From Ahrensia sp. (lineage in GTDB: Bacteria > Pseudomonadota > Alphaproteobacteria > Rhizobiales > Rhizobiaceae), in the NCBI GenBank assembly GCA_002698425.1, contig NZXU01000014.1:1-29060 (forward strand): a stretch of DNA of 29,060 nt, read 5' to 3'. The notes beneath the pieces were generated by a model that ran no database searches, was not told where the DNA came from, and saw only the letters and a program-made list of their open reading frames with translations. Positions 2,984 through 26,402 of this stretch are shown here, in pieces. The position numbers were made by a program, and so were the translations under genes. Positions within the stretch are counted from its first letter, which is position 1. Each line of letters starts with the position of its first letter.

Positions 2984-3592
2984 GGCTCTTCGCAGTTGAG
3001 GGTGTAGAGGTGATCGGCGCGTCGCTGCCGGATAGGGGTCGAGGTCTCTCGAAGATGAAGGTTCCTACACGCCTCATCCGAAAGACCTCGACGTGCCCAA
3101 CGCTACCGGTCGAGCGGGCTTCGCCTGCGCTGACCTGACCACTTTCTGCCGCCTCGACGACCTCGGGTTGGAGGTGACCGGCCAGCAGGTCCACCCCGAT
3201 CACGCGGTACTGGCGTGCCGAGTCACCGACGAGGACCGCTGGTCCGCCGCTGCGGCGAGGAAGGCCGTGCCCGTGACAGCCTCACCCGAGAACTGGCTCA
3301 TGAGCCGTTCGGGCGCCCCACCACACTGCTGGTCACGATCCGTTGCTACCGCTGCGCCGGCTGTGCCCGTGTGTGGCGCCAAGACCTCAGCAACGCCGCC
3401 GAACCACGCGCCAAGCTATCCCGGAGCGCTCTGCAGTGGGCGCTCAAAGCCATTGTCTGCCAACACCTGACCGTCACCGGCGTCGCCGAAGCCTTGGCAG
3501 TATCGTGGAACACCGCCAACAACGCCGTCCTGGCCGAAGGCCAGCGAGTGCTGATCGCCGACCCGGCCCGCTTCGACGGCGTGCGCGTGATA
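2984..3592 (+). mobile_element. ISL3-family (IS1096-like) insertion sequence, left end and 5' part only
   Basis: The element begins with GGCTCTTCGCAGTTGAGGG at 2984, the terminal inverted repeat type of ISL3-family elements. It runs through a non-coding leader into a transposase start at 3093. Similarity stops near 3592, and no matching right terminal repeat is visible before the LysR gene. The 8-bp target duplication typical of the family cannot be checked because the right end is missing. Confidence 0.65.
3093..3592 (+). pseudogene. ISL3-family transposase, N-terminal fragment with frameshift
   Basis: A GTG at 3093 opens a frame beginning VPNATGRAGFACADLTTF, the start of IS1096-type TnpA. 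At about 3243 one base is missing: TGG T-CC GCC should be TGG TGC CGC. Similarity then continues in another frame with the zinc-binding region RRCGEEG...IRCYRCAGCARVWRQD and the segment up to FDGVRVI. The DDE catalytic domain that should follow is absent; from about 3592 the frame runs into unrelated sequence joined to the LysR gene. Only about 165 of roughly 415 residues remain, so the protein cannot transpose. Confidence 0.75.
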
Positions 3593-3691
3593 AGGCAGCG
3601 TGAGATTCATCGACTTCACGCCAGCGCCGGTTCGGGCGCTTCAAAGCGATTCAGGCTGGTCATGTCGCCCCGACTAGGGAACTATGACGTC

Positions 3692-4615
3692 ATGCCGACA
3701 CTGATGGATGTGTGGGATTCCACACGGATGAGGTTGCTGATCGAACTGGATCGGGCTTCGAGCCTCTCCGCAGCGGCTGCTGCCATCGGAATCAGCCAGC
3801 CTTCGGCCAGCGAGCATTTACGTCTGTTGAACTCGGCAGCCGGCGAGCCCGTAGCCGAACGTTCTGGTCGGTCACTGGTACTGACCCCCGCGGGCCAGAT
3901 CCTGGCACGCTGCGCTTCGCAGGCACTGGCCAGCCTCGCTGCAGGTGAATCAACGCTGGCCGCGCGCGCCGGATTGCGATCGGGAGTGTTATCCGTCGGC
4001 GCGTCGTCGGTGCCAGGTACTTACATCTTGCCCGCTGTCGTCGCGTCTTTCATCGCCCGCTGCCCAGACGTCGCCGTGAGGGTCTCCGTCGGTTCGACTG
4101 AAGCCGTGATGGAGTGGCTACACAAGGGGCGGATTACTCTTGCCATCATCTGCAGTGAGTCCAAGTTGCCCGGTCTTCGCTCCGAGAGCATCGGCGCTGA
4201 CGAGATCGTCGGCATCTGCAGTCCCGGCGCAGTCGACATCTCCTCCGATGGCTGCGTTTCCCTCGACCAGTTGAAGTCTCGAACACTGTTGGTTCAGGAA
4301 CATGGTTCGAGCACCCGTGCGCAAGCCCTGCGGCTGCACACGGCAGATCCGGGTTGGGGTGCGGTGTGGGAGATGGGCTCGATCGACGCGATCAAGCGCG
4401 TAGCTCGCCAGAGCACCGGAATCGGGTTCGTTTCCATTTATGCCATTACGGATGAGCGACGGCGCGGTGAGCTCGTCGACTTCACGGTCTCGGGGGTCGA
4501 TTGGGGCCAGCGGGATGTCCGTGCGGTGACATTGCGGAACGTAGTCCAGGCACCCGCTGATCGATACTTCCAGGCGCTGCTCACCGAAGCGATCGCCAAG
4601 GGATCTGGAACCTGA
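3692..4615 (+). CDS. LysR-family transcriptional regulator, probable regulator of the downstream operon
   Basis: The frame encodes 307 residues from the ATG at 3692, the usual LysR length. The open frame extends further upstream, but that part is transposase remnant. Alternative starts are at 3662 and 3704. Residues ~12-70 hold the winged helix-turn-helix: RMRLLIELDRASSLSAAAA, then ISQPSASEHLRLL, then RSLVLTPAG. The remainder is the LysR substrate-binding domain, opening with SVGASSVPGTYILP and VRVSVGSTEAVM. It lies 225 bp upstream of the catabolic operon on the same strand, not divergently as many LysR genes do. A perfect inverted repeat in that gap is a plausible binding site. The inducer is unknown; a substrate or intermediate of the operon would be expected. 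Loss of sequence just upstream by the truncated insertion may have changed its own promoter. Confidence 0.88.
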   Translation: MPTLMDVWDSTRMRLLIELDRASSLSAAAAAIGISQPSASEHLRLLNSAAGEPVAERSGRSLVLTPAGQILARCASQALASLAAGESTLAARAGLRSGVLSVGASSVPGTYILPAVVASFIARCPDVAVRVSVGSTEAVMEWLHKGRITLAIICSESKLPGLRSESIGADEIVGICSPGAVDISSDGCVSLDQLKSRTLLVQEHGSSTRAQALRLHTADPGWGAVWEMGSIDAIKRVARQSTGIGFVSIYAITDERRRGELVDFTVSGVDWGQRDVRAVTLRNVVQAPADRYFQALLTEAIAKGSGT

Positions 4616-4718
4616 GGCGTCGCCAGCCCGTAGCTGGCCACCGCTTCACCCTGCCCGCTGTGAATGTGCGCGTTGGCTACCGTCCACCTATTGGTAATTC
4701 CGAGGTCCGATCTCGGTC

Positions 4719-4735
4719 ATATGCCATTTGCATAT
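4719..4735. promoter_or_regulatory. Candidate LysR operator (inverted repeat)
   Basis: ATATGC-CATTT-GCATAT is a perfect 6-bp inverted repeat with a 5-bp spacer. It contains the T-N11-A arrangement common to LysR-family sites. It lies 17 bp upstream of the candidate -35 element of the catabolic operon. No binding data exist; the assignment rests on symmetry and position. Confidence 0.5.
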
Positions 4736-4751
4736 ATACGACGCCGTTTCC

Positions 4752-4781
4752 TTGGCCTTTGATATCGGCTAATCCTATTCT
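4752..4781 (+). promoter_or_regulatory. Candidate promoter of the catabolic operon
   Basis: TTGGCC (4752-4757) and TATTCT (4776-4781) are separated by 18 bp and lie about 60 bp upstream of the first operon gene, just after the inverted repeat. The match to the mycobacterial SigA consensus is moderate, especially at -35, which would fit an activator-dependent promoter. Confidence 0.35.
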
Positions 4782-4840
4782 TCGGTGGACGTCCAAATGG
4801 GCAGTGGGTGGACCAAGATTTAATCGAATGAGGTGCCAGA

Positions 4841-6280
4841 TTGTCGTTGCGAGACAACGCTGTTGACGTCTTGATCATCGGCGCAGGGGTGGTGGGAACA
4901 TCGATCGCGCGGGAGCTCTCGCTCCTCGACATCGACGTCGCCGTGGTTGAGCGATGGCACGACGTCGGAGAAGAGACGTCCAAAGCCAATAGTGGTGTGG
5001 CCAACTGCGGATGGTCGGCTGCCCCGGGCAGCCTGGAAGCGCAGCTGATCCTGGCTTCGGCGCCCCAGTGGGAGAAGATCGCGGAAGATCTCGGTGTCGC
5101 CTTCCGTCGTGTGGGAATCACGATGCTCGCATTGACCGAGGACGAGGTCAAAGAGTTGCCGAAGTGGGCCGAACGTGCCCAGAAAAACGGGGTCGACGCC
5201 CATCTCCTGACTGGGGACGAGGTGTCTCAGGAGGCACCGCACGCGTCCACCAAAACGCTCGCGGGCCTCCACATCCCCGACGAAGGCGTGGTCGACTCGG
5301 TGCGCCTATCGGTGGCCTATGCCGAGCAGGCTGCGCTCAACGGTGTCCGTTTCTACTTCTCGGAACCGGTCAAGAGCGCGAAGAACGACGACGGCCGGGT
5401 GTTGTCCGTCGAGACTTCACGACGAACCTTCCGGCCCAGGTTCGTGGTGAACGCCGCCGGGCTCGGTGCCGACCAGGTGTCGCGCGCACTCGGCGGCGAA
5501 GAGTTCACGGTCACGCCGCGACGCGGACAGTGGGCGTTGCTCGACCGCGAATTCGGCGCCCAGGTCCCGGGCATGCTGACCGGGGTCCCGGGGAAGCTTG
5601 GGCACGGCCCGATGGTGCTGCCCACCGCGCACGGCTCGGTGTTGTTGGGACCGACAGCCGAAGACCAAGACGACAAGCTCGACCGGTCAACGGATGAGGA
5701 CGGGCTCGACGCCGTCCTGCGTCGGTGCATGGACATGATGCCGTCTATCGACTTGAGCTATGTGACCAAACGTTTTGCCGGCGTGCGCGCCAATTCCGAT
5801 CCGACCTATCGCATCGGATGGTCGGAGTCTGCCGAGAATCTCTTGCAAGTCGCCGGAATTCGCTCCACTGGCGTCTCGGCTTCGCCGGGGATTGGCCCGT
5901 ACGTGACCACCCTGCTCTGGGAACGAGGCCTTAGCACCCATGCGGCGCCGAATCCTGTTCGCACCCTGAGTTACTCTAGCCCGCTCTGGCAGGACCTGGA
6001 TTGTGCACGCGCAGCCGCCGACCCGCTCGGGCGCACCGTCATCTGCGCGTGCGAGAAGGTCACTGCGGCTGATATTCACCAAGCGCTGTCATCGCCTTTG
6101 CCCGCGACGTCGATCGCCGGCGTCGCCCGCCGAACACACGCAACATGGGGCCGGTGCCAAGGTTCAGCGTGTCTGTCCGGTGTTTCGTTCATCACCTCGC
6201 TCTACACGGGCCATGAGCCCTGGCAGATCCCATATCACGAAGAAGGCTCCGACTTGGGGGTGGGAAACACCAATGACTGA
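4841..6280 (+). CDS. GlpA-like FAD-dependent dehydrogenase with C-terminal BFD-type [2Fe-2S] domain
   Basis: The 479-residue frame starts at a TTG with GAGGTG five bases upstream; no ATG or GTG fits better. Residues 10-35 form the FAD-binding beta-alpha-beta with GAGVVG at 14-19. The middle is a DAO-type oxidoreductase fold like the glycerol-3-phosphate dehydrogenase family (GlpA/GlpD). A BFD-like iron-sulfur domain follows, with cysteines at 402, 404, 439 and 444 (CxC...CxxxxC). That layout matches GlpA of the anaerobic glycerol-3-phosphate dehydrogenase rather than aerobic GlpD. The next gene overlaps by 8 bp and resembles a GlpB-like partner. The likely role is oxidation of a phosphorylated or free polyol or amino-alcohol, passing electrons to the respiratory chain. 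The substrate cannot be told from sequence. It is the first gene of an eight-gene operon. Confidence 0.85.
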   Translation: MSLRDNAVDVLIIGAGVVGTSIARELSLLDIDVAVVERWHDVGEETSKANSGVANCGWSAAPGSLEAQLILASAPQWEKIAEDLGVAFRRVGITMLALTEDEVKELPKWAERAQKNGVDAHLLTGDEVSQEAPHASTKTLAGLHIPDEGVVDSVRLSVAYAEQAALNGVRFYFSEPVKSAKNDDGRVLSVETSRRTFRPRFVVNAAGLGADQVSRALGGEEFTVTPRRGQWALLDREFGAQVPGMLTGVPGKLGHGPMVLPTAHGSVLLGPTAEDQDDKLDRSTDEDGLDAVLRRCMDMMPSIDLSYVTKRFAGVRANSDPTYRIGWSESAENLLQVAGIRSTGVSASPGIGPYVTTLLWERGLSTHAAPNPVRTLSYSSPLWQDLDCARAAADPLGRTVICACEKVTAADIHQALSSPLPATSIAGVARRTHATWGRCQGSACLSGVSFITSLYTGHEPWQIPYHEEGSDLGVGNTND

Positions 6281-7064
6281 CGTGATGGTGGCCGGCGGTG
6301 GCCGCTGTGGACTTCACGCGTCCCGGATGCTGGCCGAACGAGGGTTGACGGTGACTCTGGTGGAACGACTCCCACAGGCCGGGGGGCAGGAGCCTGAGCG
6401 CGATGCGGCGACACTGGTCAAAGCGGCACAAGCCGCGGGTGTCAAGCTGGTCTTGGGCACGCTGGCAGTCGAATACCGTAACGGAAGCCTGTCGACACTG
6501 GGTATCGACGGCGCCACCAGCACCGCTATCACAGCGCTCGTTCTCGCGACTGGAACGCGACCCCGAACCCGAGCTGAGCTCAACATCGGTGGTGAGCGAG
6601 GAAGTGGCGTGTTGCCGGGATCAGCAGCCCTTCACTTTCTGGACGCCGGCTTACTGCCTGGCCGTCGACCCGTCGTTATCGGTGCCGGCGAGTTGGCGCA
6701 TCACCTGAGCAGCAAGCTGCTGAGCAAGGGTGCTGAGCGAGTGACCGTGGTGACTGCCGGGCCGGGAACAGGTGTATGGCAAGCAGGCGTGCAGGTATAC
6801 GACCAGGCGACTCCCAAAGCCGTGCTTGGCTTTCCGCGCCTTCACACTCTCGTGATCGAGACTGCGGACGGTCCTGTAGAGCTTCACGCGGACTCGGTGA
6901 TCCTGGCCGCCGGGCGAATTCCTATGCGCAACATCGAGGGAGCCGTGTTCTCCGACGCTCCGACGGTCTACGAGTGCTTTTCAACGGCGGATCCAAAGAC
7001 AGATCACGAGTCGCTGGCTGTGGCGACCGAAACCGTCCGTCAAATAGACAGCCGCCTCCGCTGA
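6273..7064 (+). CDS. FAD/NAD-dependent oxidoreductase subunit, GlpB-like partner of the preceding flavoprotein
   Basis: The 263-residue frame starts at the ATG at 6273, inside the end of the GlpA-like gene. A longer upstream frame exists but overlaps that gene and is not needed. Residues 4-30 hold a dinucleotide motif, VAGGGRCGLHASRML followed by LTVTLVE. A second motif, PVVIGAGELAHHL, sits mid-protein, and LVLATGTRPR and ILAAGRIP are the strand-ATG motifs of pyridine-nucleotide/FAD oxidoreductases. It is short for a complete two-dinucleotide enzyme (about 400 residues). This suits an accessory flavoprotein subunit like GlpB or the alpha subunits of opine/proline oxidases. I infer a complex with the upstream protein from the overlap and the family pairing. 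Confidence 0.75.
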   Translation: MTDVMVAGGGRCGLHASRMLAERGLTVTLVERLPQAGGQEPERDAATLVKAAQAAGVKLVLGTLAVEYRNGSLSTLGIDGATSTAITALVLATGTRPRTRAELNIGGERGSGVLPGSAALHFLDAGLLPGRRPVVIGAGELAHHLSSKLLSKGAERVTVVTAGPGTGVWQAGVQVYDQATPKAVLGFPRLHTLVIETADGPVELHADSVILAAGRIPMRNIEGAVFSDAPTVYECFSTADPKTDHESLAVATETVRQIDSRLR

Positions 7065-7086
7065 GGCACGAACACTGGAGAAGATC

Positions 7087-7314
7087 ATGCAAGTCTTGTC
7101 GCCCGTAGGGAGATTCCCCGTAACCGTCGACGGTGTCCATATCCAAGACCGCCGTATTGTCGTGAAGGCCTCGCTGGGTGCGTGGCGATCCGAGGTCACG
7201 CTAGAGAGATCCGATCTACCACTGGTGTCCGTCGTTCTGGCAGTTCTGGGCGTTGTACCGCTGGCCGCCTTCGGTATCGGACGCTGGTCAACCTCCTCGA
7301 AACGGACGAAATAA
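7087..7314 (+). CDS. Small single-pass membrane protein of the operon
   Basis: This 75-residue frame starts at an ATG with GGAGAAG eight bases upstream. Residues ~1-45 are soluble and beta-rich. Residues ~46-65 (LVSVVLAVLGVVPLAAFGIG) form one hydrophobic helix, and a basic tail (STSSKRTK) follows, suggesting an N-out or membrane-anchored topology. The family is not recognised. Its place directly after the two flavoprotein genes suggests an anchor or electron-transfer accessory, much as GlpC anchors GlpAB. It lacks the GlpC iron-sulfur cysteines, so it is not GlpC itself. One base separates its stop from the aldolase start, implying coupled translation. Confidence 0.65.
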   Translation: MQVLSPVGRFPVTVDGVHIQDRRIVVKASLGAWRSEVTLERSDLPLVSVVLAVLGVVPLAAFGIGRWSTSSKRTK

Positions 7315-7315
7315 A

Positions 7316-8173
7316 TTGGCAAGCAACATTTTCAACGAGATCGTCAGTGCGGCGCTGGCCGGTCACTACGGCGTCCTGGGGCTCAATGTCTTTGATGAGT
7401 TGACATTGCGAACCGCCGTTGAGGCTGCAGAGGCAGAGAAAGCGCCGATCATCATCCAGACATCTGTGAAGACAGTGAAATCCATTGGCGCAAGGCGCCT
7501 ATCGGATCATTTCAAGCTGGTATCCTCAGCTTCCGGATCGCCGGTGTCACTGCACCTGGACCACTGCCCGGACCGGGGTGTCATCTCAGAATGCATCCGC
7601 GAGGGCTGGGATTCGGTGTTGTTCGATGCATCCCACTTGTCGTTGGGCGAGGCGACTGCCCAGACCAAAGAGGTGGTGGAGGAAGCTCACGCCCGCGGGG
7701 TGAACGTCGAAGGCGAGGTCGAGGGAATCCAAGGCGTCGAGGACGGCATCGGCAGCGACGACGCTCCTACTCTGTACCCGCTCGAGAAGGTCATCGAGTT
7801 CATCAATGTCACCGGGATCGACTGTTTCGCACCAGCCATCGGAAACGCACACGGCCTCTATAAGCAAGAGCCCCAGCTGGATATCCAGCGGGTCCGGGAT
7901 CTCGTCGCCGCCACAAACATCCCTATGGCCTTGCACGGCGGATCGGGACTCTCTGCAGAACAATTCGGCGAACTGATCGCCGCGGGGTGTGCAAAGGTCA
8001 ACATTTCGACCGCATTGAAGCGTGCCTTTATCGAGGGATACCGAAATTATCTCACTGCGCACCCCTCGGCCGCGGAACCGCTGACAGTAATCGCGCAAGT
8101 ACGGCAAGACCTTCAACAGATCGTGGTCCACTACATCCGACAGTTCGGCAGTGCCGGCTCGGTGTCGTCGTGA
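7316..8173 (+). CDS. Class II ketose-bisphosphate aldolase, GatY/KbaY type
   Basis: A TTG start at 7316 follows GGACGAA and gives 285 residues, the length of tagatose-bisphosphate aldolases GatY/KbaY. Key positions coincide with that subfamily: Asp82 and His83 in HLDHC, His179 in GNAHGLYK and His207 in ALHGGSG. These correspond to the catalytic Asp and three zinc ligands known for KbaY-type enzymes. LFDASHLS and KVNISTALKRAF supply the phosphate-binding elements. Family members split a ketose phosphate into dihydroxyacetone phosphate and an aldehyde. Substrate stereochemistry and chain length cannot be predicted; the neighbours suggest something other than ordinary fructose or tagatose bisphosphate. 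Its stop overlaps the next start (GTGA), indicating translational coupling. Confidence 0.9.
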   Translation: MASNIFNEIVSAALAGHYGVLGLNVFDELTLRTAVEAAEAEKAPIIIQTSVKTVKSIGARRLSDHFKLVSSASGSPVSLHLDHCPDRGVISECIREGWDSVLFDASHLSLGEATAQTKEVVEEAHARGVNVEGEVEGIQGVEDGIGSDDAPTLYPLEKVIEFINVTGIDCFAPAIGNAHGLYKQEPQLDIQRVRDLVAATNIPMALHGGSGLSAEQFGELIAAGCAKVNISTALKRAFIEGYRNYLTAHPSAAEPLTVIAQVRQDLQQIVVHYIRQFGSAGSVSS

Positions 8174-8982
8174 AAGCGCTTATTCTCGACTGCGATGGTG
8201 TTCTTGCCGACACCGAACGGGACGGCCATCGAGTCGCGTTCAATAGGGTTTTTGCGGAAAACAAAGTCGCATTCCAGTGGACCGACGAGACTTACCGGCA
8301 GGCTCTGCAGGTCGGCGGCGGCAAGGAGCGGCTACGCGCTCTCCTATCCCGAGAATTCCTCGAGCAACACGAACTCACCAATGGAATCGAACTCGAAACC
8401 CTGATCGCGACATGGCATCGGCGAAAGACCGAACTATATGTCGAATTGCTCGACTCTGGTGCAATTAAGGCTCGCTCCGGCGTTCGACGGTTGTCTCGCG
8501 AAGCGCTTCGACAAGGTTGGCTACTCGCAGTCGCGTCGACCTCTGCGCACGAATCAGTCCGTGCGGTCCTGAACAAGGTGATGGGAGCGGACCTGGCCGG
8601 CCACTTCACTGTGTGCGCGGGCGATGATGTTCAGCTGAAGAAGCCTGCACCGGACATTTATCTGCTTGCCCTCAATCGGTTGGGCGTCAAGGCCGGGGAC
8701 GCAGTTGTTGTCGAGGACTCCGCGATAGGTGTACAGGCGGCGCTCACAGCCGGCATCACTGCTGTAATCGCGACACCAAGCACTTACACGATCCATGAAG
8801 ATCTCAGCGCTGCAGCAGTGGTCGTCAGCGAGCTCGGAGACCCGGGCCAACCGATACAGAACGCTGGGAAAGGTTTGGACGAGAGCATGACTGACGGAGT
8901 AGTCGAATACAGACATCTATTAGAACTCCTGAACGTCAAGGCTCCGCATACAGAAGTGAGGGGTCATGCAAATAGTCAGTAA
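8170..8982 (+). CDS. HAD-superfamily hydrolase, CbbY/beta-phosphoglucomutase-like phosphatase
   Basis: A GTG start overlapping the aldolase stop gives 270 residues. Motif I is LDCDGVLADTE with nucleophile Asp7 and acid Asp9, motif II is the Ser/Thr of VASTSAH, the Lys motif is LKKPAPDIYL, and motif III is VVEDSAIGVQAA. A helical cap of about 65-130 residues lies between motifs I and II, as in the CbbY/PGMB subgroup. Such enzymes dephosphorylate small sugar phosphates or, less often, isomerise them. The tail after about residue 235 is longer than usual and unassigned. In the operon it may remove phosphate from a product or dead-end intermediate. The EutH-like gene begins within its last 17 bases. 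Confidence 0.85.
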   Translation: MKALILDCDGVLADTERDGHRVAFNRVFAENKVAFQWTDETYRQALQVGGGKERLRALLSREFLEQHELTNGIELETLIATWHRRKTELYVELLDSGAIKARSGVRRLSREALRQGWLLAVASTSAHESVRAVLNKVMGADLAGHFTVCAGDDVQLKKPAPDIYLLALNRLGVKAGDAVVVEDSAIGVQAALTAGITAVIATPSTYTIHEDLSAAAVVVSELGDPGQPIQNAGKGLDESMTDGVVEYRHLLELLNVKAPHTEVRGHANSQ

Positions 8983-10192
8983 CATAGTTCTCTACACCAT
9001 GATGGCGTTCGTCCTCATCGGTGCTGCATTTGCGATACGTAACAGTGATTCCGGAATTGGGAAGGAATTTCTTCAAGGTATTCATTCCATCGGCCACTTG
9101 TTCGTCCCGGTAGCGGGGATCATGGCGTCCATCCCATACCTGACCACCGCGGTCGAGAAGGGCGCCGGGCCGATCTGGCAAGCATTGGGGGCCGACCCTT
9201 CGATCGCGGCAACCACATTCATCGCTTCCGATATGGGCGGGTATCAACTTGCCTTCGCTACGGCGGGTGATAGCGGAGCGTGGATCACGGCAATGGTGAC
9301 AGGGTTCATGGCCGGTGCGACGATTGTGTTCACCGTCCCCGTTGGTCTCGCGATGCTACAGAAGACCGACCAGCGATACATGGCATTGGGCATCATGTCG
9401 GGCGTGCTCACAATCCCGATCGGGGTCTTGGTGACCATGGTGATCATAATGATCACGCGTCCGCTCATCCGTGGAGATGTGCGAACAACCGGGCCTTCGG
9501 AGACTGTGATTGACGGCCTCAACATTCAAGAGCTACTCGCCAATCTGCTCCCCCTGCTGCTGATCGTCGTAGCCATCGCCGCCGGACTGAAGTTCGCACC
9601 GGGATTTATGATCAAGGCGTTCATCATCTTTGGCCGCCTGATCGATGCGGCCGTGAAGATAATCCTCGCACTGTCGATCGTCGAGTACTTCACCGGTATC
9701 TTCACGAAGATGTTCGGAGCGTGGGGATTCGAGCCGATCATTGCCACGGCGGATGACCACTTCCGTGCCCTCGAGGTCGTCGGTGCGGTCGGAATCATGC
9801 TCGCAGGTGCGTTTCCCATGGTCTACGCGATCAACAAATTTCTCGCCGGGCCACTGAGCCGCCTGGGGAATCGGGTAGGAATCGGCGAAACCGGAGTCAC
9901 CGGAATGCTCGGCGGTGCTGCAAATGCGCTCGCGCTCTTCCACGTCGTCAAGAACATGTCGCCGCGGGATAAGGTGATATCGATCGCGTTCGTGGTATGT
10001 GGTGGCTTCTTGCTGGGCGATCACCTGTCATTCACGGCCAACTTCCAGCCAAACTTGATCGGCGCTGTGCTCGTAGGAAAGCTGACTGCGGCCATTCTCG
10101 CCATCGTCCTGGCACGCTACATCGCGGTACCCACCGCTGAGCGATTGGCTCAGAAGGACGAACCGTTCCTCGACTCCGGCACACACGCGTAG
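8966..10192 (+). CDS. eutH: EutH-family permease (ethanolamine or related amino-alcohol uptake)
   Basis: The 408-residue frame (ATG at 8966, GAGGGG upstream) has the same length as enterobacterial EutH. It shares several recognisable stretches, including ASDMGGYQLA, GATIVFTVPVGLAM, GVLTIPIGV, GAFPMVYAINK and GDHLSFTANFQ. About ten to eleven hydrophobic helices cover most of the chain. EutH transports ethanolamine across the cytoplasmic membrane in organisms with eut operons. Here no eutBC lyase, reactivase or shell-protein gene accompanies it, so the substrate may be ethanolamine feeding a different route, or a related amino-alcohol or polyol. The symbol marks family membership, not proven substrate. 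Between a phosphatase and a kinase, it would act as the entry step of the operon. Confidence 0.88.
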   Translation: MQIVSNIVLYTMMAFVLIGAAFAIRNSDSGIGKEFLQGIHSIGHLFVPVAGIMASIPYLTTAVEKGAGPIWQALGADPSIAATTFIASDMGGYQLAFATAGDSGAWITAMVTGFMAGATIVFTVPVGLAMLQKTDQRYMALGIMSGVLTIPIGVLVTMVIIMITRPLIRGDVRTTGPSETVIDGLNIQELLANLLPLLLIVVAIAAGLKFAPGFMIKAFIIFGRLIDAAVKIILALSIVEYFTGIFTKMFGAWGFEPIIATADDHFRALEVVGAVGIMLAGAFPMVYAINKFLAGPLSRLGNRVGIGETGVTGMLGGAANALALFHVVKNMSPRDKVISIAFVVCGGFLLGDHLSFTANFQPNLIGAVLVGKLTAAILAIVLARYIAVPTAERLAQKDEPFLDSGTHA

Positions 10193-10207
10193 CGGCCAGG
10201 GCGACCC

Positions 10208-11191
10208 ATGACTAACTCAGATTCCACCGCACAGCGTGACTTGGAAACCGTCGTTCGAGCGCAATGGCCGAGCCGACCCTGGAAGTCGGTCGCGCTAGAC
10301 GGCGGCATGACGAATCGTAATTGGCGGGTCACCGTCGAATCAGATTCCAGTGGCGCACAAGAGGATTTCGCCGTTCAACTGTTGCTCTCCAACGAGCTCG
10401 CAGCGCGTATCGGAATCAACCGCCACACTCAGAAGCAGGTAATGCCGATTGTCGAAGAACTGAAGCTGGGCCCGAAACTCGTGGCATGGCGACAAGGCGA
10501 TCCATGTGCTCTGATCACTGACTTCCTCGAGAACGCCGGCGCATCCGGACCCGAAGACCGCTCGCGGGTAATCACCCTGGCTGCCGCCGCATTGTCTCGA
10601 CTGCATAAGAACACCCGCGGGACTCGGTTGCGAAACTACATCTCGGACCCGTTCGATGGCGCTGAGTGGCTATTCCGGAGGGTCGAGGAATTGATCCCGC
10701 AGGCGTCCGCTCCCTTCACGTGGGCGATCGAATTGAGTAGGCGCTGCCAGCGGGCTCGAGGCACGTACGAACCCTGCTTGCTACACGCAGACCTTTCGGT
10801 TGGCAACGTGCTGGTCTCGCAGTCGGGCGTAAGCCTCATCGATTGGGAGTATGCGGGCGGCGGAGACAGGTTCTTCGATTGTGGTGATTTTGCCGAGAAG
10901 TGGGAGTTGAGTGCCGTCGAGGAACGCCAATTCGCCGACGAGTACAACTCGACGGGGGATTCACTCGAATATCTGCTCGCGGCTCTGCGAATGTATCGCT
11001 TCCACAGCCGCTTGCGCGAGGCGCTATGGGCGGCGGCGGCCAGCACCACGCACTTCACCGAGTTCGACCATTCCGCCTATAGCCGCGCCTGTATGACGCG
11101 CCTGGACGACATCGCCGCCAGCAAAGCGTTCCAAGACAGCCTAAGTCTGGTAAAAGCCACCACTGAGATAAAGGAAGTGCAGTGCTCGTAA
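10208..11191 (+). CDS. Choline/ethanolamine kinase-like phosphotransferase (APH fold)
   Basis: The 327-residue frame starts at ATG 10208, 15 bp after the permease. The glycine-rich loop GGMTNRNWRV (residues ~32-41) resembles the GGxTN loop of choline kinases. The Brenner motif is LLHADLSVGN with His193, Asp195 and Asn200. The metal-binding IDWEYAGGGDRFFD has Asp212 and is followed by DCGDFAE, as in choline/ethanolamine kinases and ThiK. The expected reaction is ATP-dependent phosphorylation of a hydroxyl group on a small alcohol. Next to a EutH permease, ethanolamine or a similar amino-alcohol is the natural candidate. The APH fold also includes methylthioribose kinase and aminoglycoside kinases, so a sugar substrate remains possible. 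The next gene starts within its last 10 bases. Confidence 0.85.
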   Translation: MTNSDSTAQRDLETVVRAQWPSRPWKSVALDGGMTNRNWRVTVESDSSGAQEDFAVQLLLSNELAARIGINRHTQKQVMPIVEELKLGPKLVAWRQGDPCALITDFLENAGASGPEDRSRVITLAAAALSRLHKNTRGTRLRNYISDPFDGAEWLFRRVEELIPQASAPFTWAIELSRRCQRARGTYEPCLLHADLSVGNVLVSQSGVSLIDWEYAGGGDRFFDCGDFAEKWELSAVEERQFADEYNSTGDSLEYLLAALRMYRFHSRLREALWAAAASTTHFTEFDHSAYSRACMTRLDDIAASKAFQDSLSLVKATTEIKEVQCS

Positions 11192-12504
11192 CATCCCTTC
11201 ACCCAAACCTCGACTCCGCCACAGTGATCAGGGAACGACAGTTGCGGGTCGAGTCGGGGGCCTCGGAATACGTTCACGCAGTTCACCCCTCGATCCTGGC
11301 GCAGGTCGAGACTGGTTCGGCGGTGAATGTCTCTGCTCGCTTCCGCGAGGTTGTTGATCTGTTCGAGCCGAAGCGAGAATCCACACCAGCCGGTTTCCGT
11401 GTGGAGACCACCGGGACACACTCTGTCACCCTGGATCTCGTTCGCGATATCGGCTATGCCCGGGATGGGCAACGTAGGCCGACGTCATTGCTGTTCTCGG
11501 CAGACTCTGCCAACCCGTACGAAATCGCCGAATGTCGCGATCTGATTGCCAATGTGACCTGCAATCCGGGGATCGTCTACGACCTTTTTCTCAACAACCC
11601 GGAGGCCAACGTTGGCGGCCAATTCTCTGATCTCAACGAAGTGTTACAGGCAATAGGAGACGAGGTCGGCCCCGGGTGTGACATCTCCGTCGAACTCCAC
11701 GATCCGTACGAACAGGACTTCGCCAAGATACTCGACGAGATTCAGATGTACGAGGATATCCTGTCGCGCTACCGCCTGGTGGTCAAAGTCCCTCATACAG
11801 GAGCGATCTCACCCTCAGCTTCGAGTCAGCTCCTGACTGGCGATGGTCTACTGAACAACCGATACTATGACGGATCTCCCGAGGATCTCCTACGCGGACA
11901 TTCCTTGGCGCACAAGCTGCATGAGTTGGGTCACCGCGTCAACTTCACGCTTATGTTCGAGCCGTATCAGACACCTCTCGCATTGCAGATCCGGCCATAT
12001 TTCATCAACGCTTTCATACGTAACCGGCTCAGTGCCACGCGTCGTATATCGGGGTTGCTGGCCGCATTCGAAGCCACTGAGGATTCCTGGTTCATCAGAG
12101 AACTTCGGCAGTACTTGATTGCGAACCACTACTTGGGTAAGGGCGACGCTGAACTCGACCTCCTTGAAACCCTGTCTCAGGCCAAGCGGATGGTGGCTTA
12201 TCGCCACAATGAAAGCAGCGATGGCTTGGACAGCGCTCGTGCCTCAGTGCGCTGGCTGCGCGCATCAAATCTGCCTGATTCACGATTGATCGTCTGTTCT
12301 CTCGACGGAGACACGCTGTTCCCGATGGTGATGTCGATGCTGGTCGAGCCAGAGTTCATCGATCTCCAGGATCGCGTGTTACTCACGACTGATCCACGCT
12401 ATTTGGCGCGCTGGGCGAGCAGCCCCCATGTCATCAGCTATCAACAGAGATTTTTGAAGGCGTGCGAAGGAAGTGTGTCACGAGTGCCTTCTTCCGCGAG
12501 TTGA
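11182..12504 (+). CDS. Divergent transaldolase-family protein
   Basis: A GTG at 11182, four bases after AAGGAAG, opens 440 residues, overlapping the kinase gene by 10 bp. The transaldolase core is visible: NVTCNPGIVYD (residues ~124-134; usual TTNPS), VELHDPYEQDF (~170), VVKVPHT with the probable Schiff-base Lys202, VNFTLMFEPYQTPLALQI and ISGLLAAF. It is longer than classical TalB (~317). It has an extra N-terminal ~100 residues and an extended C-terminus (RLIVCSLDGDTLFPMVMSML). Transaldolases move or release a three-carbon dihydroxyacetone unit. Some divergent members cleave rather than transfer, as in sulfoquinovose catabolism. With a class II aldolase in the same operon, two aldol steps on related phosphorylated intermediates are possible. 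The family call is sound; the substrate is unknown. Confidence 0.75.
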   Translation: MLVTSLHPNLDSATVIRERQLRVESGASEYVHAVHPSILAQVETGSAVNVSARFREVVDLFEPKRESTPAGFRVETTGTHSVTLDLVRDIGYARDGQRRPTSLLFSADSANPYEIAECRDLIANVTCNPGIVYDLFLNNPEANVGGQFSDLNEVLQAIGDEVGPGCDISVELHDPYEQDFAKILDEIQMYEDILSRYRLVVKVPHTGAISPSASSQLLTGDGLLNNRYYDGSPEDLLRGHSLAHKLHELGHRVNFTLMFEPYQTPLALQIRPYFINAFIRNRLSATRRISGLLAAFEATEDSWFIRELRQYLIANHYLGKGDAELDLLETLSQAKRMVAYRHNESSDGLDSARASVRWLRASNLPDSRLIVCSLDGDTLFPMVMSMLVEPEFIDLQDRVLLTTDPRYLARWASSPHVISYQQRFLKACEGSVSRVPSSAS

Positions 12505-12517
12505 GTGGCGAGAAGGG

Positions 12518-12532
12518 CGGGGTTTGACCCCG
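12518..12532 (+). terminator. Candidate terminator after the catabolic operon
   Basis: CGGGGT-TTG-ACCCCG forms a 6-bp GC-rich hairpin 14 bp after the transaldolase stop. There is no T-tract, as is common for mycobacterial terminators. A second weaker stem (GTGGAG/CTCCAC) lies at 12547-12570. Nothing else is recognised between 12505 and 12777. Confidence 0.4.
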
Positions 12533-12777
12533 GGCACCGGATAGGTGTGGAGTCGTAAACAACTCTCCACGTGTTCCGCCGCGCTGCACTTTTCTGGGGA
12601 ACCCCAGTTGGCTACGGGGCAGAACACCTGCCCGTCCGCTTGCGGCGTGCCCGGTGCCACTGGTCTTCGACACCTGACCTCACCGAATGTTTCATAGCCG
12701 GATCGTAAGCTGCCGTGCGTGGTCGCTGCGTAGCAGAGGGATTCAGCGTCCATATATCGCGTGGTGAATAGCGGTGG

Positions 12778-12895: not shown

Positions 12896-14660
12896 CCTGA
12901 GTTTGGACACCTCGAGGGTTTCTCTCGATTGGTAAGGGTTTGACCTGCAGATATTCGGCAGCGGGTAGGTGTTTTGGGGTACTAAACCGGTAGGTTCGGG
13001 CGGTGGCGTACGTGCGGAAAGTGCGCACTGCTTCGGGTGCGGTGGCGGTGCAGGTCGCCCGTAAGGATGGGGGCCGGGTGGTGATCCTGGCGCACCTTGG
13101 TTCGGCGCATACCGACGCTGAGCTGGGCATTCTGCTCGAACAGGCCCGCCAGGTCGTAGTCGGCGGGCAGGCGGCGCTGGATTTCGAGGTCTCGGTTCGG
13201 GCCCAATCAATGACCGACGTCGCTGATTTCCGTGAGCGGTCGTTGATCGGCGAGCTCTCTGGGCCCTCGGTTGCGGCCCCGGTGGTACCGCCAGGGCGCA
13301 CGGTCGGGGCCAGCTCGCGTCTGCTTTACGACACCCTTGGCCACGTCTATGACTGGCTGGGCTTCGATGCCGTCGGCGATGCGGTATTTCGCGATTTGGT
13401 GATCGCCCGGATCGTGGAGCCGACCAGCAAGCTCGATGCTTCGCGGGTGCTGGCTGATCTCGGCGCCGCGGGGGTGTCGTATAAGACCATCGACCGCCAC
13501 GTCCGCAAGATCGACGCTGGCGGTCACCGCGACGTGATCGCCGAAAAATGCTTCGCCTACGCCACCGATTGCGGCGGGCTGTCGCTGATCTTGTACGACG
13601 TGACGACCCTGTATTTCGAAGCCGAATCTGAGGATGCGCTGCGCAAGGTCGGCTACTCGAAGGAGCGTCGTGTCGACCCACAGATCGTGGTCGGGCTGTT
13701 GGTGGACCGCACCGGATTCCCTTTGGAGATCGGCTGTTTCGAAGGCAACACCGCCGAGACCAGCACCATCGTGCCGATCATCACCAGCTTCCTGGCCCGC
13801 CACAACCTCGACGACACGCCCCTGGTGGTCGCTGCTGATGCCGGCATGCTGTCTCAAACCAACCTCGCAGCCCTCGATGCGGCCAAGCTGTCGTTCATCG
13901 TCGGATCCCGCGTTACCAAGGCGCCCGGGGACCTGGAATCGCATTTCCACTGGAACGGTGATGTGTTCACCGACGGGCAGATTATCGACACTGTGACCCC
14001 GCGGCACGGCAACATCAAGGTCAACACCACCAAGCTGCGCGCCGAGCCGGTCTGGGATCCCAAATCACATCCAGGCGCGTGGCGGGCGATCTGGGCGTAC
14101 TCGGCCAAACGGGCCCGCCGCGACCACAAGACCCTCGCTGCTCAGGAAGCCCGGGCCCGAGCGATCGTGGCCGGCGAGAAGAGCGCCAAGACAGCACGAT
14201 TCGTCAAGACCAGAGGCGCCGACCGCGCGATCGACGAGGCCGGTCTGACCCGTGCCCAATCTCTAGTCGGCCTCAAGGGCTACGTGACCAACGTGCCGGT
14301 ATCGCTGATGCCGGCCGCCGAAGTCATCGCGAAGTACCACGATCTCTGGCACGTCGAGAAATCGTTTCGGATGTCCAAGTCCGACCTCGACGCGCGCCCC
14401 ATGTTCAACCGCATGCGCGACGCCATCGAAGCCCACCTGACCATCGTGTTCACCGCACTGGCGGTCTCCCACGCCATCCAATCGCGCACCGGACTGTCGA
14501 TCGCCAAGGTCGTCAAGCTCCTACGACCGCTGCGCTCGGCGACCATCACCATCAACGGCGCCACCCAGACCTTCCCACCAGAAATCCCCGACAACGAACG
14601 CAAGATCCTCACCGATCTGGGCCTCAATCCTGGGTACTAAGCGAAATGTCCAAACTCAGG
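12896..14660 (+). mobile_element. IS1634-family (IS1549-like) insertion sequence, complete
   Basis: The 1765-bp element has inverted ends CCTGAGTTTGGACA at 12896-12909 and its complement at 14647-14660. It contains one full transposase gene. It sits inside the rnpB copy between identical 42-bp direct repeats. Everything needed for activity appears intact. Confidence 0.88.
13003..14640 (+). CDS. IS1634-family transposase
   Basis: The 545-residue frame starts at GTG 13003 (VAYVRKVRTASGAVAVQV). It spans nearly the whole element and ends 20 bp before the right terminus. The opening segment, with QVARKDGGRVVILAHLGSAH, is typical of IS1549/IS1634 transposases. Candidate DDE residues are the Asp in LILYDVTTLYFEAE, the Asp in VVAADAGMLSQTN and the Glu in DLWHVEKSFRMSKSDL, with the usual large beta-strand insertion between the second Asp and Glu. 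No frameshift or stop is present, so the protein is probably functional. It catalyses cut-and-paste movement of its element. Confidence 0.9.
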   Translation: MAYVRKVRTASGAVAVQVARKDGGRVVILAHLGSAHTDAELGILLEQARQVVVGGQAALDFEVSVRAQSMTDVADFRERSLIGELSGPSVAAPVVPPGRTVGASSRLLYDTLGHVYDWLGFDAVGDAVFRDLVIARIVEPTSKLDASRVLADLGAAGVSYKTIDRHVRKIDAGGHRDVIAEKCFAYATDCGGLSLILYDVTTLYFEAESEDALRKVGYSKERRVDPQIVVGLLVDRTGFPLEIGCFEGNTAETSTIVPIITSFLARHNLDDTPLVVAADAGMLSQTNLAALDAAKLSFIVGSRVTKAPGDLESHFHWNGDVFTDGQIIDTVTPRHGNIKVNTTKLRAEPVWDPKSHPGAWRAIWAYSAKRARRDHKTLAAQEARARAIVAGEKSAKTARFVKTRGADRAIDEAGLTRAQSLVGLKGYVTNVPVSLMPAAEVIAKYHDLWHVEKSFRMSKSDLDARPMFNRMRDAIEAHLTIVFTALAVSHAIQSRTGLSIAKVVKLLRPLRSATITINGATQTFPPEIPDNERKILTDLGLNPGY

Positions 14661-14702
14661 ACCGTCGCCGGGTGCCTCAAGCGGCCTACCCGCAAACTCG
14701 GG
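14661..14702. repeat. 42-bp direct repeat, right copy, flanking the IS1549-like element
   Basis: Identical over 42 bp to 12854-12895. The rnpB sequence continues directly beyond it at 14703, showing that the repeat is duplicated target rather than part of the element. Confidence 0.85.
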
Positions 14703-14779
14703 CGAGCAGCCCTTGAACGCTTGCGCAGCCACAACCAGGTTGCGGCCTTCTTGGCCTTGCTTCGGGTGGGGTTTACCTA
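14703..14779 (-). ncRNA. rnpB: RNase P RNA (rnpB) copy, middle segment
   Basis: The complement reads TAGGTAAACCCCACCCGAAG and continues through AGGCCGCAACCTGGTTGTGG to GGGCTGCTCGCC. This is the central specificity region of RNase P RNA, between the IS630 insertion at its 5' side and the IS1549-like insertion at its 3' side. It joins smoothly to the 3' segment once one 42-bp repeat is removed. Confidence 0.8.
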
Positions 14780-15862
14780 GTGTCCTGAGTCATTAATTCG
14801 GGTGCAGTAGTTGGCGATGTTGGCCAGGATTTGGTCGGCGGTCTTGGTCCAGACGTAGGGCCGGGGGTTGTTGTTCCAGTGCTGGATCCAGGCGCGGATG
14901 TCGGCGTTGAGTTGGCGTACCGAGGTGTGGGTTCCGCGGCGCAGTTTCTTGGTAGTCAGTTCCGCGATCCAGCGTTCGACGAGGTTGAGCCAGCTGGAGC
15001 TTGTCGGTGTGAAGTGCAGGACGAACCGGGGATGGTTTGTCAGCCAACGCTTTACCGCCGGCGTCTTGTGGGTGGAGGCGTTGTCGAGGACGACGTGGCA
15101 GTCCAGATCGGCGGGGACTTCGGCGTCGATCTTTTTGAGGAAGGCCAGGAATTCCTGGCTACGGTGCCGGGCGTGAAGCGAGCCGATGACCTGGCCGGTG
15201 GCCAGATCCAACGCCGCGTACAGGCTCGACGTACCGTGACGGACGTAGTCGTGGCTGGCACGCGCCGGGGTGCCTGGCAGCATCGGGAACACCGGCGCGG
15301 TGCGATTGAGTGCCTGGATCTGGGTTTTCTCATCCACACACAGCACCACCGCGCGTTCGGGCGGGTCGAGGTAGAGCCCGACGACGTCACGGACCTTCTC
15401 CACGAACAAGGGATCTTTCGACAGCTTCCACGAGTCCTGTTTGTGCGGCGCCAATCCGAACGCCCGCCAGACACGGGAGACCATCGATTGACTCAACCCG
15501 AGATGCTCGGCCATCGACCGCGTCGACCAGTGCGTAGCGTCCTTGGGAGCAGACTCCAGCGTCTGGGTGATCAACGCCTTGATCTGCTCGTCACCCACGA
15601 CCCGCGGCCGGCCTGGACGCGGTTCGTCGAGCAGGCCGTCACAGCGCAACTCCACGAACCGATTGCGCCACCGTTTCACCGTTGACCGCGAGACCCCCAG
15701 GTTGGCCGCCAACTCTGTGTTGGACCCGCCGTCGGCAGCCGCCAACACAATTCGCGACCGCAGTGCCAACCCCGCCGCACTGCTCCGACGCCGCGCCCAC
15801 CCCTCCAACTCGGCACGTTCAGTATCGGTCAACACGATCGCAGCAGCCTGAGGAGTGGGCAT
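14777..15862 (-). CDS. IS630-family transposase
   Basis: The 361-residue frame starts at ATG 15862 (MPTPQAAAIVLTDTERAEL); a TTG five codons upstream is an alternative. The N-terminal half holds two helix-turn-helix segments (TELAANLGVSRSTVKRWRNR and AEHLGLSQSMVSRVWRAFG). The DDE residues are Asp in VLCVDEKTQI, Asp in CHVVLDNASTHK and Glu in WLNLVERWIAEL, all present. The coding frame reads through the terminal repeat (CTRINDSGH), and its TAG stop is completed by the target TA plus one flanking base. Apparently intact and functional. Confidence 0.92.
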   Translation of the reverse strand: MPTPQAAAIVLTDTERAELEGWARRRSSAAGLALRSRIVLAAADGGSNTELAANLGVSRSTVKRWRNRFVELRCDGLLDEPRPGRPRVVGDEQIKALITQTLESAPKDATHWSTRSMAEHLGLSQSMVSRVWRAFGLAPHKQDSWKLSKDPLFVEKVRDVVGLYLDPPERAVVLCVDEKTQIQALNRTAPVFPMLPGTPARASHDYVRHGTSSLYAALDLATGQVIGSLHARHRSQEFLAFLKKIDAEVPADLDCHVVLDNASTHKTPAVKRWLTNHPRFVLHFTPTSSSWLNLVERWIAELTTKKLRRGTHTSVRQLNADIRAWIQHWNNNPRPYVWTKTADQILANIANYCTRINDSGH

Positions 15863-15905
15863 GACCCAGTCTAACAACTGAGCCGTAATTAATGACTCAG
15901 GACAC
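14780..15905 (-). mobile_element. IS630-family insertion sequence, complete
   Basis: The 1126-bp element is bounded by perfect 19-bp inverted repeats: GTGTCCTGAGTCATTAATT at 14780-14798 and its complement at 15887-15905. TA dinucleotides (14778-14779 and 15906-15907) flank both ends, the expected IS630/Tc1-type target duplication. It interrupts the rnpB copy. Confidence 0.93.
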
Positions 15906-16919: not shown

Positions 16920-17648
16920 CTAGGTTCGGCGCACCATGGTGAGGAGGTCGATGAGGGTGGCGGCGTGGCAGCCGAGGTGGTCGAGGGCGGCGTGCCCTTT
17001 GGCTTCGGTCGCCAGTGAGGGGTAGCCGATGACGCCGGTGGTGGTGTAGGCGCTGATGCCGAGGGTGGTCAGGTGGCGCCGGTCGGTGGCGGTGTGATCG
17101 GTCTGTGCCCAGCCGTCGCGCAGGTAGTCGGGGTGGCTGGCGAGGAGGATGGAGGTTTCGAGTTCGCCGGCGTGCATATCGTCGTGGTTGCTGCTGGTGA
17201 TGGCGGCGGCAGTGCGGGCCTCGGTCCAGTCTTCACGACTCGGATACAGGCCCACGTTCAGCGGGCCGGCGGGCTGGTTGGCTTGCTGCACGACATTGGT
17301 GAGCACGGCGTTGCCGCCGTGCGCGTTCACCACAATCAACCCACGCATGCCCTGGCCGGTCAGGGACTGGCCGATATCGGCGATGATCGCGGCCAGGGTG
17401 GTGGCGCTGATACTGATGGTGCCGGGGTAGGCAGCGTGTTCATGTGAGCAGCCGAACGTGATCGGCGGCAGCGCTAGAACCTGGTGGTGCTCGGTGATGG
17501 CTGCGGTGATCGCGCAGGCGATCAGGGTGTCGGTGCCCAACGGTAGGTGGGGGCCGTGCTGCTCGAAGGCCCCCACCGGCAGCACCGCGACCGCGCTGGT
17601 CGCGGCGGGGTCGGTGGTGGTGAGGTCGGGGATGATGTCGTGGCTCAC
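16920..17648 (-). CDS. Creatininase-family metal-dependent amidohydrolase
   Basis: The 242-residue frame starts at GTG 17648, with AAGGAG upstream and a 4-bp GTGA overlap with the regulator gene. Family motifs are complete: LPVGAFEQHGPHLPLGTDT near the N-terminus (metal-binding Glu, His and Asp), VNAHGGN in the middle and DMHAGELETSI for the second metal site. Creatininase relatives hydrolyse cyclic or linear amides; MftE of mycofactocin synthesis is another branch. No mycofactocin genes are nearby. The tight coupling to a large XRE regulator recurs in actinobacterial mobile elements, but its substrate is not known to me. I infer a role linked to the regulator, such as processing a small signal molecule. 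Confidence 0.85.
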   Translation of the reverse strand: MSHDIIPDLTTTDPAATSAVAVLPVGAFEQHGPHLPLGTDTLIACAITAAITEHHQVLALPPITFGCSHEHAAYPGTISISATTLAAIIADIGQSLTGQGMRGLIVVNAHGGNAVLTNVVQQANQPAGPLNVGLYPSREDWTEARTAAAITSSNHDDMHAGELETSILLASHPDYLRDGWAQTDHTATDRRHLTTLGISAYTTTGVIGYPSLATEAKGHAALDHLGCHAATLIDLLTMVRRT

Positions 17649-26384: not shown

Positions 26385-26389
26385 TTGGC

Positions 26390-26395
26390 TAGTAT
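26390..26395 (+). promoter_or_regulatory. Candidate -10 element for a leaderless abi transcript
   Basis: TAGTAT ends seven bases before the abi ATG at 26403, with no Shine-Dalgarno sequence between. Start of transcription at the A of ATG would give a leaderless mRNA, a common class in mycobacteria. No good -35 is visible because the RNA terminator occupies that region. Confidence 0.4.
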
Positions 26396-26402
26396 CCCCG
26401 GA

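Follow-up and report, generated by a model that had tools for sequence, protein, structure and literature searches.

What could a bacterium do with an EutH-family permease that is encoded without ethanolamine ammonia-lyase? This question is raised by a contig from Ahrensia sp. (NZXU01000014.1 of assembly GCA_002698425.1). We analyzed positions 1 to 29,060 of its forward strand (the window), and the permease is part of an eight-gene operon at 4841-12504 on the + strand (Table 1). Besides EutH, the operon encodes an oxidoreductase that binds flavin adenine dinucleotide (FAD), a short partner flavoprotein, a small protein, a class II aldolase, a HAD phosphatase, a choline/ethanolamine-kinase-like enzyme, and a long transaldolase. 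Ethanolamine is a common nutrient that derives from membranes, and the best-known route for its use depends on vitamin B12 and proceeds via acetaldehyde. We propose an assimilatory role for the operon that needs neither B12 nor ethanolamine ammonia-lyase, with ethanolamine or a closely similar amino alcohol as the substrate. We estimate a probability of roughly 40% for the full scheme, and ethanolamine is our best single guess for the substrate.

In the proposed scheme, EutH would take up ethanolamine or a close amino alcohol, and the kinase would convert ethanolamine to phosphoethanolamine. The FAD/[2Fe-2S] oxidoreductase, together with its partner and the small membrane protein, would oxidize the C-N bond to release ammonia and glycolaldehyde phosphate, and the electrons would pass to an acceptor, possibly in the respiratory chain. 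The aldolase, acting as a condensing enzyme, would join glycolaldehyde phosphate to dihydroxyacetone phosphate (DHAP) and form D-xylulose-1,5-bisphosphate. The HAD phosphatase, which is CbbY-like, would then strip the 1-phosphate to give xylulose-5-phosphate, which would make this step irreversible. Three two-carbon (C2) units and three DHAP would give three xylulose-5-phosphate, which the housekeeping transketolase and the operon's transaldolase would convert to hexose and triose phosphates, with DHAP regenerated. The net balance would be two triose phosphates from three C2 units. We know of no standard route for glycolaldehyde phosphate, a two-carbon phosphate; the aldolase, the phosphatase, and the transaldolase would supply one.

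We are very sure that the gene set and its conservation are real. A scan with Pfam and NCBIfam found all of the genes that had been named in an initial annotation, which was made from the sequence alone. That annotation did not list the gene for the small protein, which is conserved in all six relatives with full neighborhoods. The gaps between successive genes are -8, 22, 1, -4, -17, 15, and -10 bases, and with these overlaps or short gaps (at most 22 bases) and the retention of the set in six relatives, the operon does appear to be one functional unit, as had been suggested. The whole set is present in six distinct loci with full neighborhoods, from three families: three from Mycobacteriaceae (M. 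vanbaalenii BC8_1, L004; Mycolicibacterium sp. J2, L005; and a mycobacterial metagenome-assembled genome, L012), two from Nocardioides (Nocardioides glacieisoli, L006, and N. oceani, L007), and one from Tetrasphaera australiensis (L008). In four of the six, the gene for EutH is in line with the operon, while in the other two (L005 and L012), it is divergent and upstream.

These relatives are among 83 loci with long transaldolases. We searched with 32 aligned long transaldolases, confirmed 189 loci, kept 80 of them, and added three whole-genome loci; gene maps were read for 33 of the 83. A close family of kinases (cluster 14) is present at 9 of the 83 loci, always beside the long transaldolase. 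Six of the nine are the loci with the whole set and full neighborhoods, and the remaining three (L001, L002, and L003) are short stretches, with L003 being the same place as L012. The association of these genes is more than chance. The gene set is coherent but its spread is patchy, because in a survey of 147 Nocardioides genomes, the close kinase was found in the query genome alone (G490; 43% identity and 260 bits). The next best match in that survey was at 51 bits and 27% identity, and 56 of the 147 genomes had a match at E = 0.001. Similarly, in a set of 100 genomes made up of the window's nearest genome and its relatives, 3 have the long transaldolase.

Permease, kinase, and flavoprotein

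EutH is clearly a member of its Pfam family (Table 1). The initial annotation emphasized that its length is exactly canonical (408), but this is a coincidence: NF011668, with 413 positions, fits far better (554 bits, just missing its equivalog cutoff of 575) than the 408-position model does (212 bits). In a midpoint-rooted tree of 16 EutH proteins, the three that are linked to EutB split from the 13 others, which include the window's EutH (support of 100/100, with a warning from the program about long branches that join at the EutB split). The window's EutH is outside the EutB-linked (ammonia-lyase) branch. A placement of EutH in a non-ethanolamine branch with a known substrate had been named in advance as evidence against the initial interpretation. 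The outcome is mixed: the protein does lie outside the ammonia-lyase branch, yet amine or amino-alcohol genes adjoin EutH in several of its relatives, and in others (L111, L112, and Paracoccus yeei) the neighboring genes suggest polyols.

For example, L095 and the Nitratireductor plasmid pOM-1 combine EutH with a choline-kinase/APH-family kinase and a DAO/FAO_M/GCV_T flavoprotein, a domain order that is typical of sarcosine dehydrogenases and dimethylglycine dehydrogenases. The kinase of L095 shows homology to the window's kinase (26% identity, E = 7e-21) and to the pOM-1 kinase (31%). The pOM-1 kinase did not match the window's kinase at 1e-5, but both score in Choline_kinase and APH. In L096, L097, and L098, EutH is beside fusions of winged-helix, nucleotidyltransferase, and choline-kinase domains (these neighborhoods span 9268-12407 in L096 and 7340-10536 in L098). 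In L096 and L098, EutH may be an importer of choline or ethanolamine for surface decoration, and it may take the place of LicB.

The window's kinase passes the cutoff of the choline-kinase family and scores higher for APH. The motifs HxDxxxxN and IDWEYAG are present in the alignment, and in PDB, the kinase matched a single entry at E = 0.001, namely a choline kinase (4r77). Together, EutH and the kinase support the earlier suggestion of uptake and phosphorylation of an amino alcohol. As had also been noted, eutBC and shell genes are absent, with no match among the 20 window proteins that were scanned with Pfam. EutB also had no match in the assemblies of four of the six named carriers (the two Nocardioides, Tetrasphaera, and the mycobacterial metagenome-assembled genome), or in four genomes whose EutH matches at 53-59% (one of these genomes is 82% complete). 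In the genomes G744 and G085, EutB is located elsewhere.

The FAD oxidoreductase and its partner had been described as a GlpA/GlpB-like pair. The predicted structure of the oxidoreductase is most similar in PDB to Mycoplasma GlpO (4x9m; Mp GlpO), and then to glycine oxidase and L-2-hydroxyglutarate dehydrogenase. By sequence, the oxidoreductase misses the equivalog cutoffs of NF033460, which is the model for type 2 glycerol-3-phosphate (G3P) oxidase (217 bits vs. 460), and of TIGR03377 (106 bits vs. 553). “GlpB-like” is a loose label because no GlpB family was among the best 25 families listed for the partner. We propose that the oxidoreductase is a member of the glycerol-3-phosphate-oxidase/glycine-oxidase family that acts as an amino-alcohol-phosphate dehydrogenase.

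A key part of the GlpO comparison is a missing histidine. Amine oxidation is the natural alternative to alcohol oxidation in this fold family. The suggested base in Mp GlpO is His51, which would abstract the hydrogen of the C2 hydroxyl, and an equivalent residue, His92, is present in the hydroxyglutarate enzyme (excerpts of PMC10726252). The window's protein has Asn55 instead. None of the 120 closest homologs listed has histidine at this position (D 44, A 43, N 15, E 8, G 4, S 3, T 1, gap 2), whereas all 120 retain Arg316. Among more distant relatives, we took 18 loci (L143-L160) from 48 places, and we checked all 18, as well as the EutH-linked locus L111, by tblastn. In 16 of the 18 (L145-L160), the histidine is present along with a GlpK-like kinase and a long partner flavoprotein; in L143, L144, L111, and the window, the histidine is absent and the partner is short. 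Of the 17 loci with a GlpK-like kinase, 16 have the histidine, and the sole exception is L111. The flavoprotein's branch seems to have left ordinary alcohol chemistry. Because the histidine for alcohol oxidation is missing, amine oxidation is the better reading, and the flavoprotein likely oxidizes an amine rather than an alcohol.

We set aside an identity as an opine or heterotrimeric amino-acid dehydrogenase, given that Mp GlpO is closest in structure and that the operon encodes a kinase. We also dropped the idea that APC permeases would prove an amine substrate: of the 19 loci checked by tblastn, 11 have a match to APC, and 10 of these 11 are among the 16 with the histidine and the GlpK-like kinase.

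The partner flavoprotein adjoins the main flavoprotein in the six relatives. The small protein's motif, MQVLSPVG or VEVLSPVG followed by LGAWRSE (or MGAWRSE), is kept in L004-L008 and L012, and L111 encodes a similar protein. With its single hydrophobic segment (assigned by eye), the small protein is a possible membrane anchor or electron-transfer subunit.

L145-L160 form a recurring actinobacterial cassette of a GlpK-like kinase, a His-containing GlpO-like flavoprotein, and a long Pyr_redox partner, with a match to an APC-type permease in 10 of the 16 loci. Among 394 genomes from the class, 46 have a flavoprotein match at E = 1e-60. For the window's own flavoprotein, the closest database cluster (P0121, 100%) represents 327 contigs.

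Aldolase, phosphatase, and transaldolase

The aldolase had been annotated as GatY/KbaY with all zinc ligands. The zinc-site motifs (LHLDH, GNAHG, and LHGGSG, which presumably hold the ligands) are intact, but TIGR01859, for class II fructose-bisphosphate aldolase (227 bits vs. a cutoff of 343), outscores the best tagatose-type model (211 bits). The aldolase is below the curated cutoff for all 20 models listed. Its nearest solved relative is 8q57, which we take to be a sulfofructose-phosphate aldolase. We set aside a sulfoquinovose-type reading, as no sulfo-sugar gene was found among the window proteins scanned.

We are sure, from comparisons of sequences, that the HAD phosphatase is CbbY-like, which refines its earlier description. 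It scores 168 bits against Arabidopsis CbbY (4uav), 121-124 bits against Rhodobacter CbbY (124 for 4uar), and 57 bits against the next family, and it keeps 66 of the 86 positions that are common to the two CbbYs. CbbY-like HADs are encoded in the window and at 17 other long-transaldolase loci (in L014, about 8 kb from the transaldolase). Sixteen of these keep 55-69 of the 86 positions, and the HAD of L003, a partial copy of that in L012, keeps 40 of 51. For comparison, four other HADs from long-transaldolase loci keep only 27-33 of 81 positions. We predict that the window's enzyme converts xylulose-1,5-bisphosphate to xylulose-5-phosphate. In excerpts of PMC10212915, CbbY shows high selectivity for xylulose-1,5-bisphosphate relative to ribulose-1,5-bisphosphate, and xylulose-1,5-bisphosphate is made enzymatically from DHAP and glycolaldehyde phosphate in an aldol addition. 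Since CbbY's substrate arises by this addition, condensation is a better reading for the aldolase than cleavage, and the overlap of the aldolase gene with the gene for the CbbY-like protein suggests that DHAP is condensed with a short aldehyde phosphate. The aldolase likely builds rather than cleaves. With the phosphatase favoring condensation and the missing histidine favoring amine oxidation, the earlier suggestion that a polyol is oxidized and then split by the aldolase is not supported in that form.

The transaldolase is indeed divergent: it narrowly misses the cutoff of PF00923 (Table 1). A database search at E = 0.001 scored 1597 proteins of the long-transaldolase family, and most of the relatives among the best 120 carry PF00923. 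Its structural model, built from a 32-row alignment, is confident (mean predicted local distance difference test of 90.5) and has a transaldolase fold. The best matches in PDB are 1vpx (E = 1e-9 with Foldseek) and 3r8r, and the fold is also close to sulfofructose transaldolases. Lys202, in the motif VKVPHTG, is invariant in 32 of 32 aligned rows and is presumably the Schiff-base lysine. Judging from known motifs, Glu171 and Phe278 are probably transaldolase-like, not fructose-6-phosphate-aldolase-like.

More broadly, we suggest, somewhat more tentatively than the scheme itself, that this is a natural B12-free ethanolamine route via xylulose-1,5-bisphosphate with a CbbY-type enzyme as a main catabolic step, and that the aldolase, the CbbY-like phosphatase, and the long transaldolase form a recurring module for very short sugar phosphates. 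In other bacteria, where the long transaldolase is found with DhaK/DhaL or with an FGGY kinase, it may serve in the same way for other short phosphates.

In four loci from Firmicutes (L029, L048, L056, and L064), the long transaldolase is found with a split transketolase, an FGGY kinase, DeoC-like proteins, and a class II aldolase, and some of these loci also encode a PHP protein or RpiB. This is possibly another pathway for short sugar phosphates.

Other substrates and known systems

Several findings weigh against ethanolamine as the substrate. Two of the six named carriers have EutB. The nearest genomes of the window's host also have it, either at a distance of about 4.3 Mb or on a different contig. 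The loss of the histidine does not by itself prove amine chemistry. The kinase fits a model from the guanitoxin pathway (NF041256; 99 bits vs. a cutoff of 357) better than it fits Pfam's choline-kinase model. Also, the long-transaldolase module occurs with DhaK/DhaL or FGGY kinases, at some loci along with an aldolase and a CbbY-like HAD, so the CbbY-like enzyme could act on other ketose bisphosphates, such as fructose- or sedoheptulose-bisphosphate. A one-carbon (C1) or four-carbon reading is also conceivable.

An important exception is L111, which is from the genus of the window's host. It encodes a DeoR regulator, a glycerol-kinase-like FGGY kinase (386 bits vs. a cutoff of 590 for TIGR01311), an oxidoreductase without the histidine, a short partner, a small protein, and EutH. 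No aldolase, CbbY, or transaldolase is present at L111, and the closest match in that genome to the window's CbbY-like protein is only 33% identical and is away from the locus. Furthermore, the EutH proteins of L005, L012, and L111 form a group (96/100), so the cargo of EutH may be a polyol or an amine that resembles glycerol. The proposed scheme would explain a unit of kinase, oxidoreductase, and EutH without the last three genes, if L111 has another substrate or if its product is already central.

The strongest alternative, which we nevertheless consider unlikely, is the catabolism of a polyol or an amino-polyol. The kinase would form a polyol phosphate, the flavoprotein would oxidize it to a ketose phosphate, and the aldolase would cleave this to DHAP and an aldehyde, with the CbbY-like enzyme and the transaldolase taking the fragments. 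This idea stays live because at L111, the window-type kinase is replaced by a glycerol-kinase-like gene, beside EutH and the oxidoreductase without the histidine. Other EutH relatives (in L112 and Paracoccus yeei) also adjoin genes that hint at polyols, namely for an ALO-family (sugar-lactone-oxidase-like) flavoprotein, and L143 and L144 join the His-less oxidoreductase to a XylB-like kinase and a FucA-like aldolase. But cleavage needs no CbbY-type bisphosphatase, and the flavoprotein lacks the histidine for alcohol oxidation. Also, the kinase is of the choline/ethanolamine kind, and such EutH-linked kinases are found with DAO/GCV_T flavoproteins.

A serinol- or aminopropanediol-type compound is an improbable substrate. 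The kinase and the flavoprotein would convert it, via 2-amino-1,3-propanediol phosphate (an analog of G3P), to DHAP and ammonia, and the other enzymes would serve gluconeogenesis. This would account for a flavoprotein that keeps the G3P-oxidase fold and Arg316 but has no histidine, and for the linkage of the same modules to a glycerol-kinase-like enzyme at L111. However, DHAP is central, so a dedicated aldolase, phosphatase, and transaldolase would be superfluous, and the operon's kinase is not glycerol-kinase-like.

Even less probable is a C1 route, in which the flavoprotein would demethylate an N-methylated amino alcohol, and the aldolase, the phosphatase, and the transaldolase would take part in a dihydroxyacetone/xylulose-monophosphate cycle for formaldehyde. 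Sets of EutH, a kinase, and a DAO/FAO_M/GCV_T flavoprotein do occur, and L013 encodes an aldolase, a CbbY-like HAD, DhaL, DhaK, and a long transaldolase. Nearby in L013 are genes for a P450, for a ferredoxin protein whose DmmA-like match is weak and below the cutoff, and for a zinc alcohol dehydrogenase that adjoins a protein with a beta-lactamase fold. But the window's flavoprotein has no GCV_T folate domain (by Pfam), and no DhaK/DhaL, dihydroxyacetone synthase, or formaldehyde dehydrogenase was found among the operon's proteins with Pfam. Finally, we rejected a plain eut operon, as there is no EutB nearby and EutH is outside the EutB-linked branch.

If the operon does use ethanolamine as we propose, then it shares an EutH-family permease and the use of an amino alcohol with eut operons that encode EutBC, but the chemistry, with a kinase, an oxidase, and an aldolase, would differ. 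A Streptomyces route via gamma-glutamylethanolamide reportedly employs a glutamine-synthetase-like enzyme, and the operon encodes none. That route (GlnA4; excerpts of PMC6529630) is likewise an actinobacterial route for ethanolamine other than EutBC. In Nocardioides glacieisoli (L006), there is a glutamine-synthetase-like gene at 13424-14914, about 2 kb downstream of the operon; it could be unrelated, or it could be a second route for handling amines.

The phosphorylation of ethanolamine is also the initial step of a route that continues with phosphoethanolamine phospho-lyase, a pyridoxal phosphate-dependent lyase that yields acetaldehyde and has a catabolic use in Pseudomonas. Where that route has the lyase, the operon has a flavoprotein and an aldolase. 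Mycoplasma GlpO and GlpABC share with the operon the fold, the match to the FAD family, Arg316, and the partner flavoprotein, while the operon's enzyme lacks the base histidine and is far below the cutoff for type 2 G3P oxidase. Erythritol pathways consist of an FGGY kinase, a GlpD-type dehydrogenase, an aldolase, and a transaldolase, with no EutH and no CbbY-like enzyme. Their use of a transaldolase and an aldolase for a short sugar phosphate (excerpts of PMC11508834) is similar to our proposal. The lyase is mentioned in excerpts of PMC8154272. CbbY of the Calvin cycle belongs to the same phosphatase family and has the same predicted reaction, but it clears an inhibitor of Rubisco (excerpts of PMC10212915), whereas the operon includes no Rubisco genes and its enzyme would be on the main path.

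We found no described pathway with this gene set in the titles and the beginnings of abstracts from the literature searched, which agrees with the initial annotation. The terms phosphoethanolamine (or phosphorylethanolamine) oxidase or dehydrogenase were not used in the portions of the literature that our searches on them returned. If the proposal is correct, then a route that builds C2 units into pentose phosphate would exist in nature as a parallel to the synthetic schemes for C2 assimilation; CbbY, so far described as a Rubisco repair enzyme, would gain a role outside of photosynthesis; and the long-transaldolase family would gain a context.

Regulator gene and mobile surroundings

Table 1. 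Coordinates of the operon's genes, the adjacent regulator, and mobile-element genes in the window
Feature	Position	Strand	Evidence or remark
LysR-family regulator	3692..4615	+	LysR_substrate 114 bits, HTH_1 49 bits; the start codon is our choice
FAD oxidoreductase with C-terminal [2Fe-2S] BFD domain	4841..6280	+	DAO 225 bits, Fer2_BFD
Short Pyr_redox partner flavoprotein, 263 amino acids	6273..7064	+	Pyr_redox_2 55 bits
Small protein, 75 amino acids, single hydrophobic segment	7087..7314	+	conserved in L004-L008 and L012
Class II (zinc) ketose-bisphosphate aldolase	7316..8173	+	PF01116 256 bits (cutoff 25.5, passed)
CbbY-like HAD phosphatase	8170..8982	+	HAD; matches to 4uav and 4uar; predicted ketose-1,5-bisphosphate 1-phosphatase
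EutH-family permease, non-ammonia-lyase branch	8966..10192	+	PF04346 371.8 bits (cutoff 25, passed)
APH/choline-ethanolamine-kinase-like kinase	10208..11191	+	PF01636 59 bits; PF01633 32.5 bits (cutoff 29, passed)
Long transaldolase, 440 amino acids	11182..12504	+	PF00923 26.3 bits (cutoff 27)
IS1634 family transposase gene	13003-14640		directly downstream of the operon
IS630 family transposase gene	14777-15877		downstream of the operon
FtsK/SpoIIIE-like translocase, pSAM2-type RepSA, Abi_2-like protein, large serine recombinase	19437-22356, 26385-28899

A homolog of the LysR-family regulator is upstream of the operon in L004-L008 and L012. In the window, the regulator's gene is within a longer open reading frame (3215-4615) whose N-terminal part is a remnant of an ISL3 transposase (60.9 bits, residues 10-126). 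This remnant (3215-3600) is joined in frame to the regulator.

The window is 100% identical to parts of two genomes from the same genus (contig C10 of G001 and contig C1 of G035), in blocks of up to 14.3 kb that are separated by insertions or unmatched stretches. Identical blocks in two different genomes suggest very recent transfer, and we regard the gene set as mobile and its host as a relative of mycobacteria. The first 1.2 kb of the window matches neither of the compared stretches, and the same is true of 12897-14660, which bears the IS1634 transposase gene. Farther downstream, genes for a translocase, a replication protein, and a recombinase look like an actinomycete integrative and conjugative element that adjoins the operon. 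We rejected an origin from a plasmid, as megablast of 4600-12600 against plasmids found no match. A more distant search of plasmids with 8966-12504 found eight records, which match in the EutH part. A gene for a creatininase-family protein (16920-17648, - strand) is beside the mobile-element genes.

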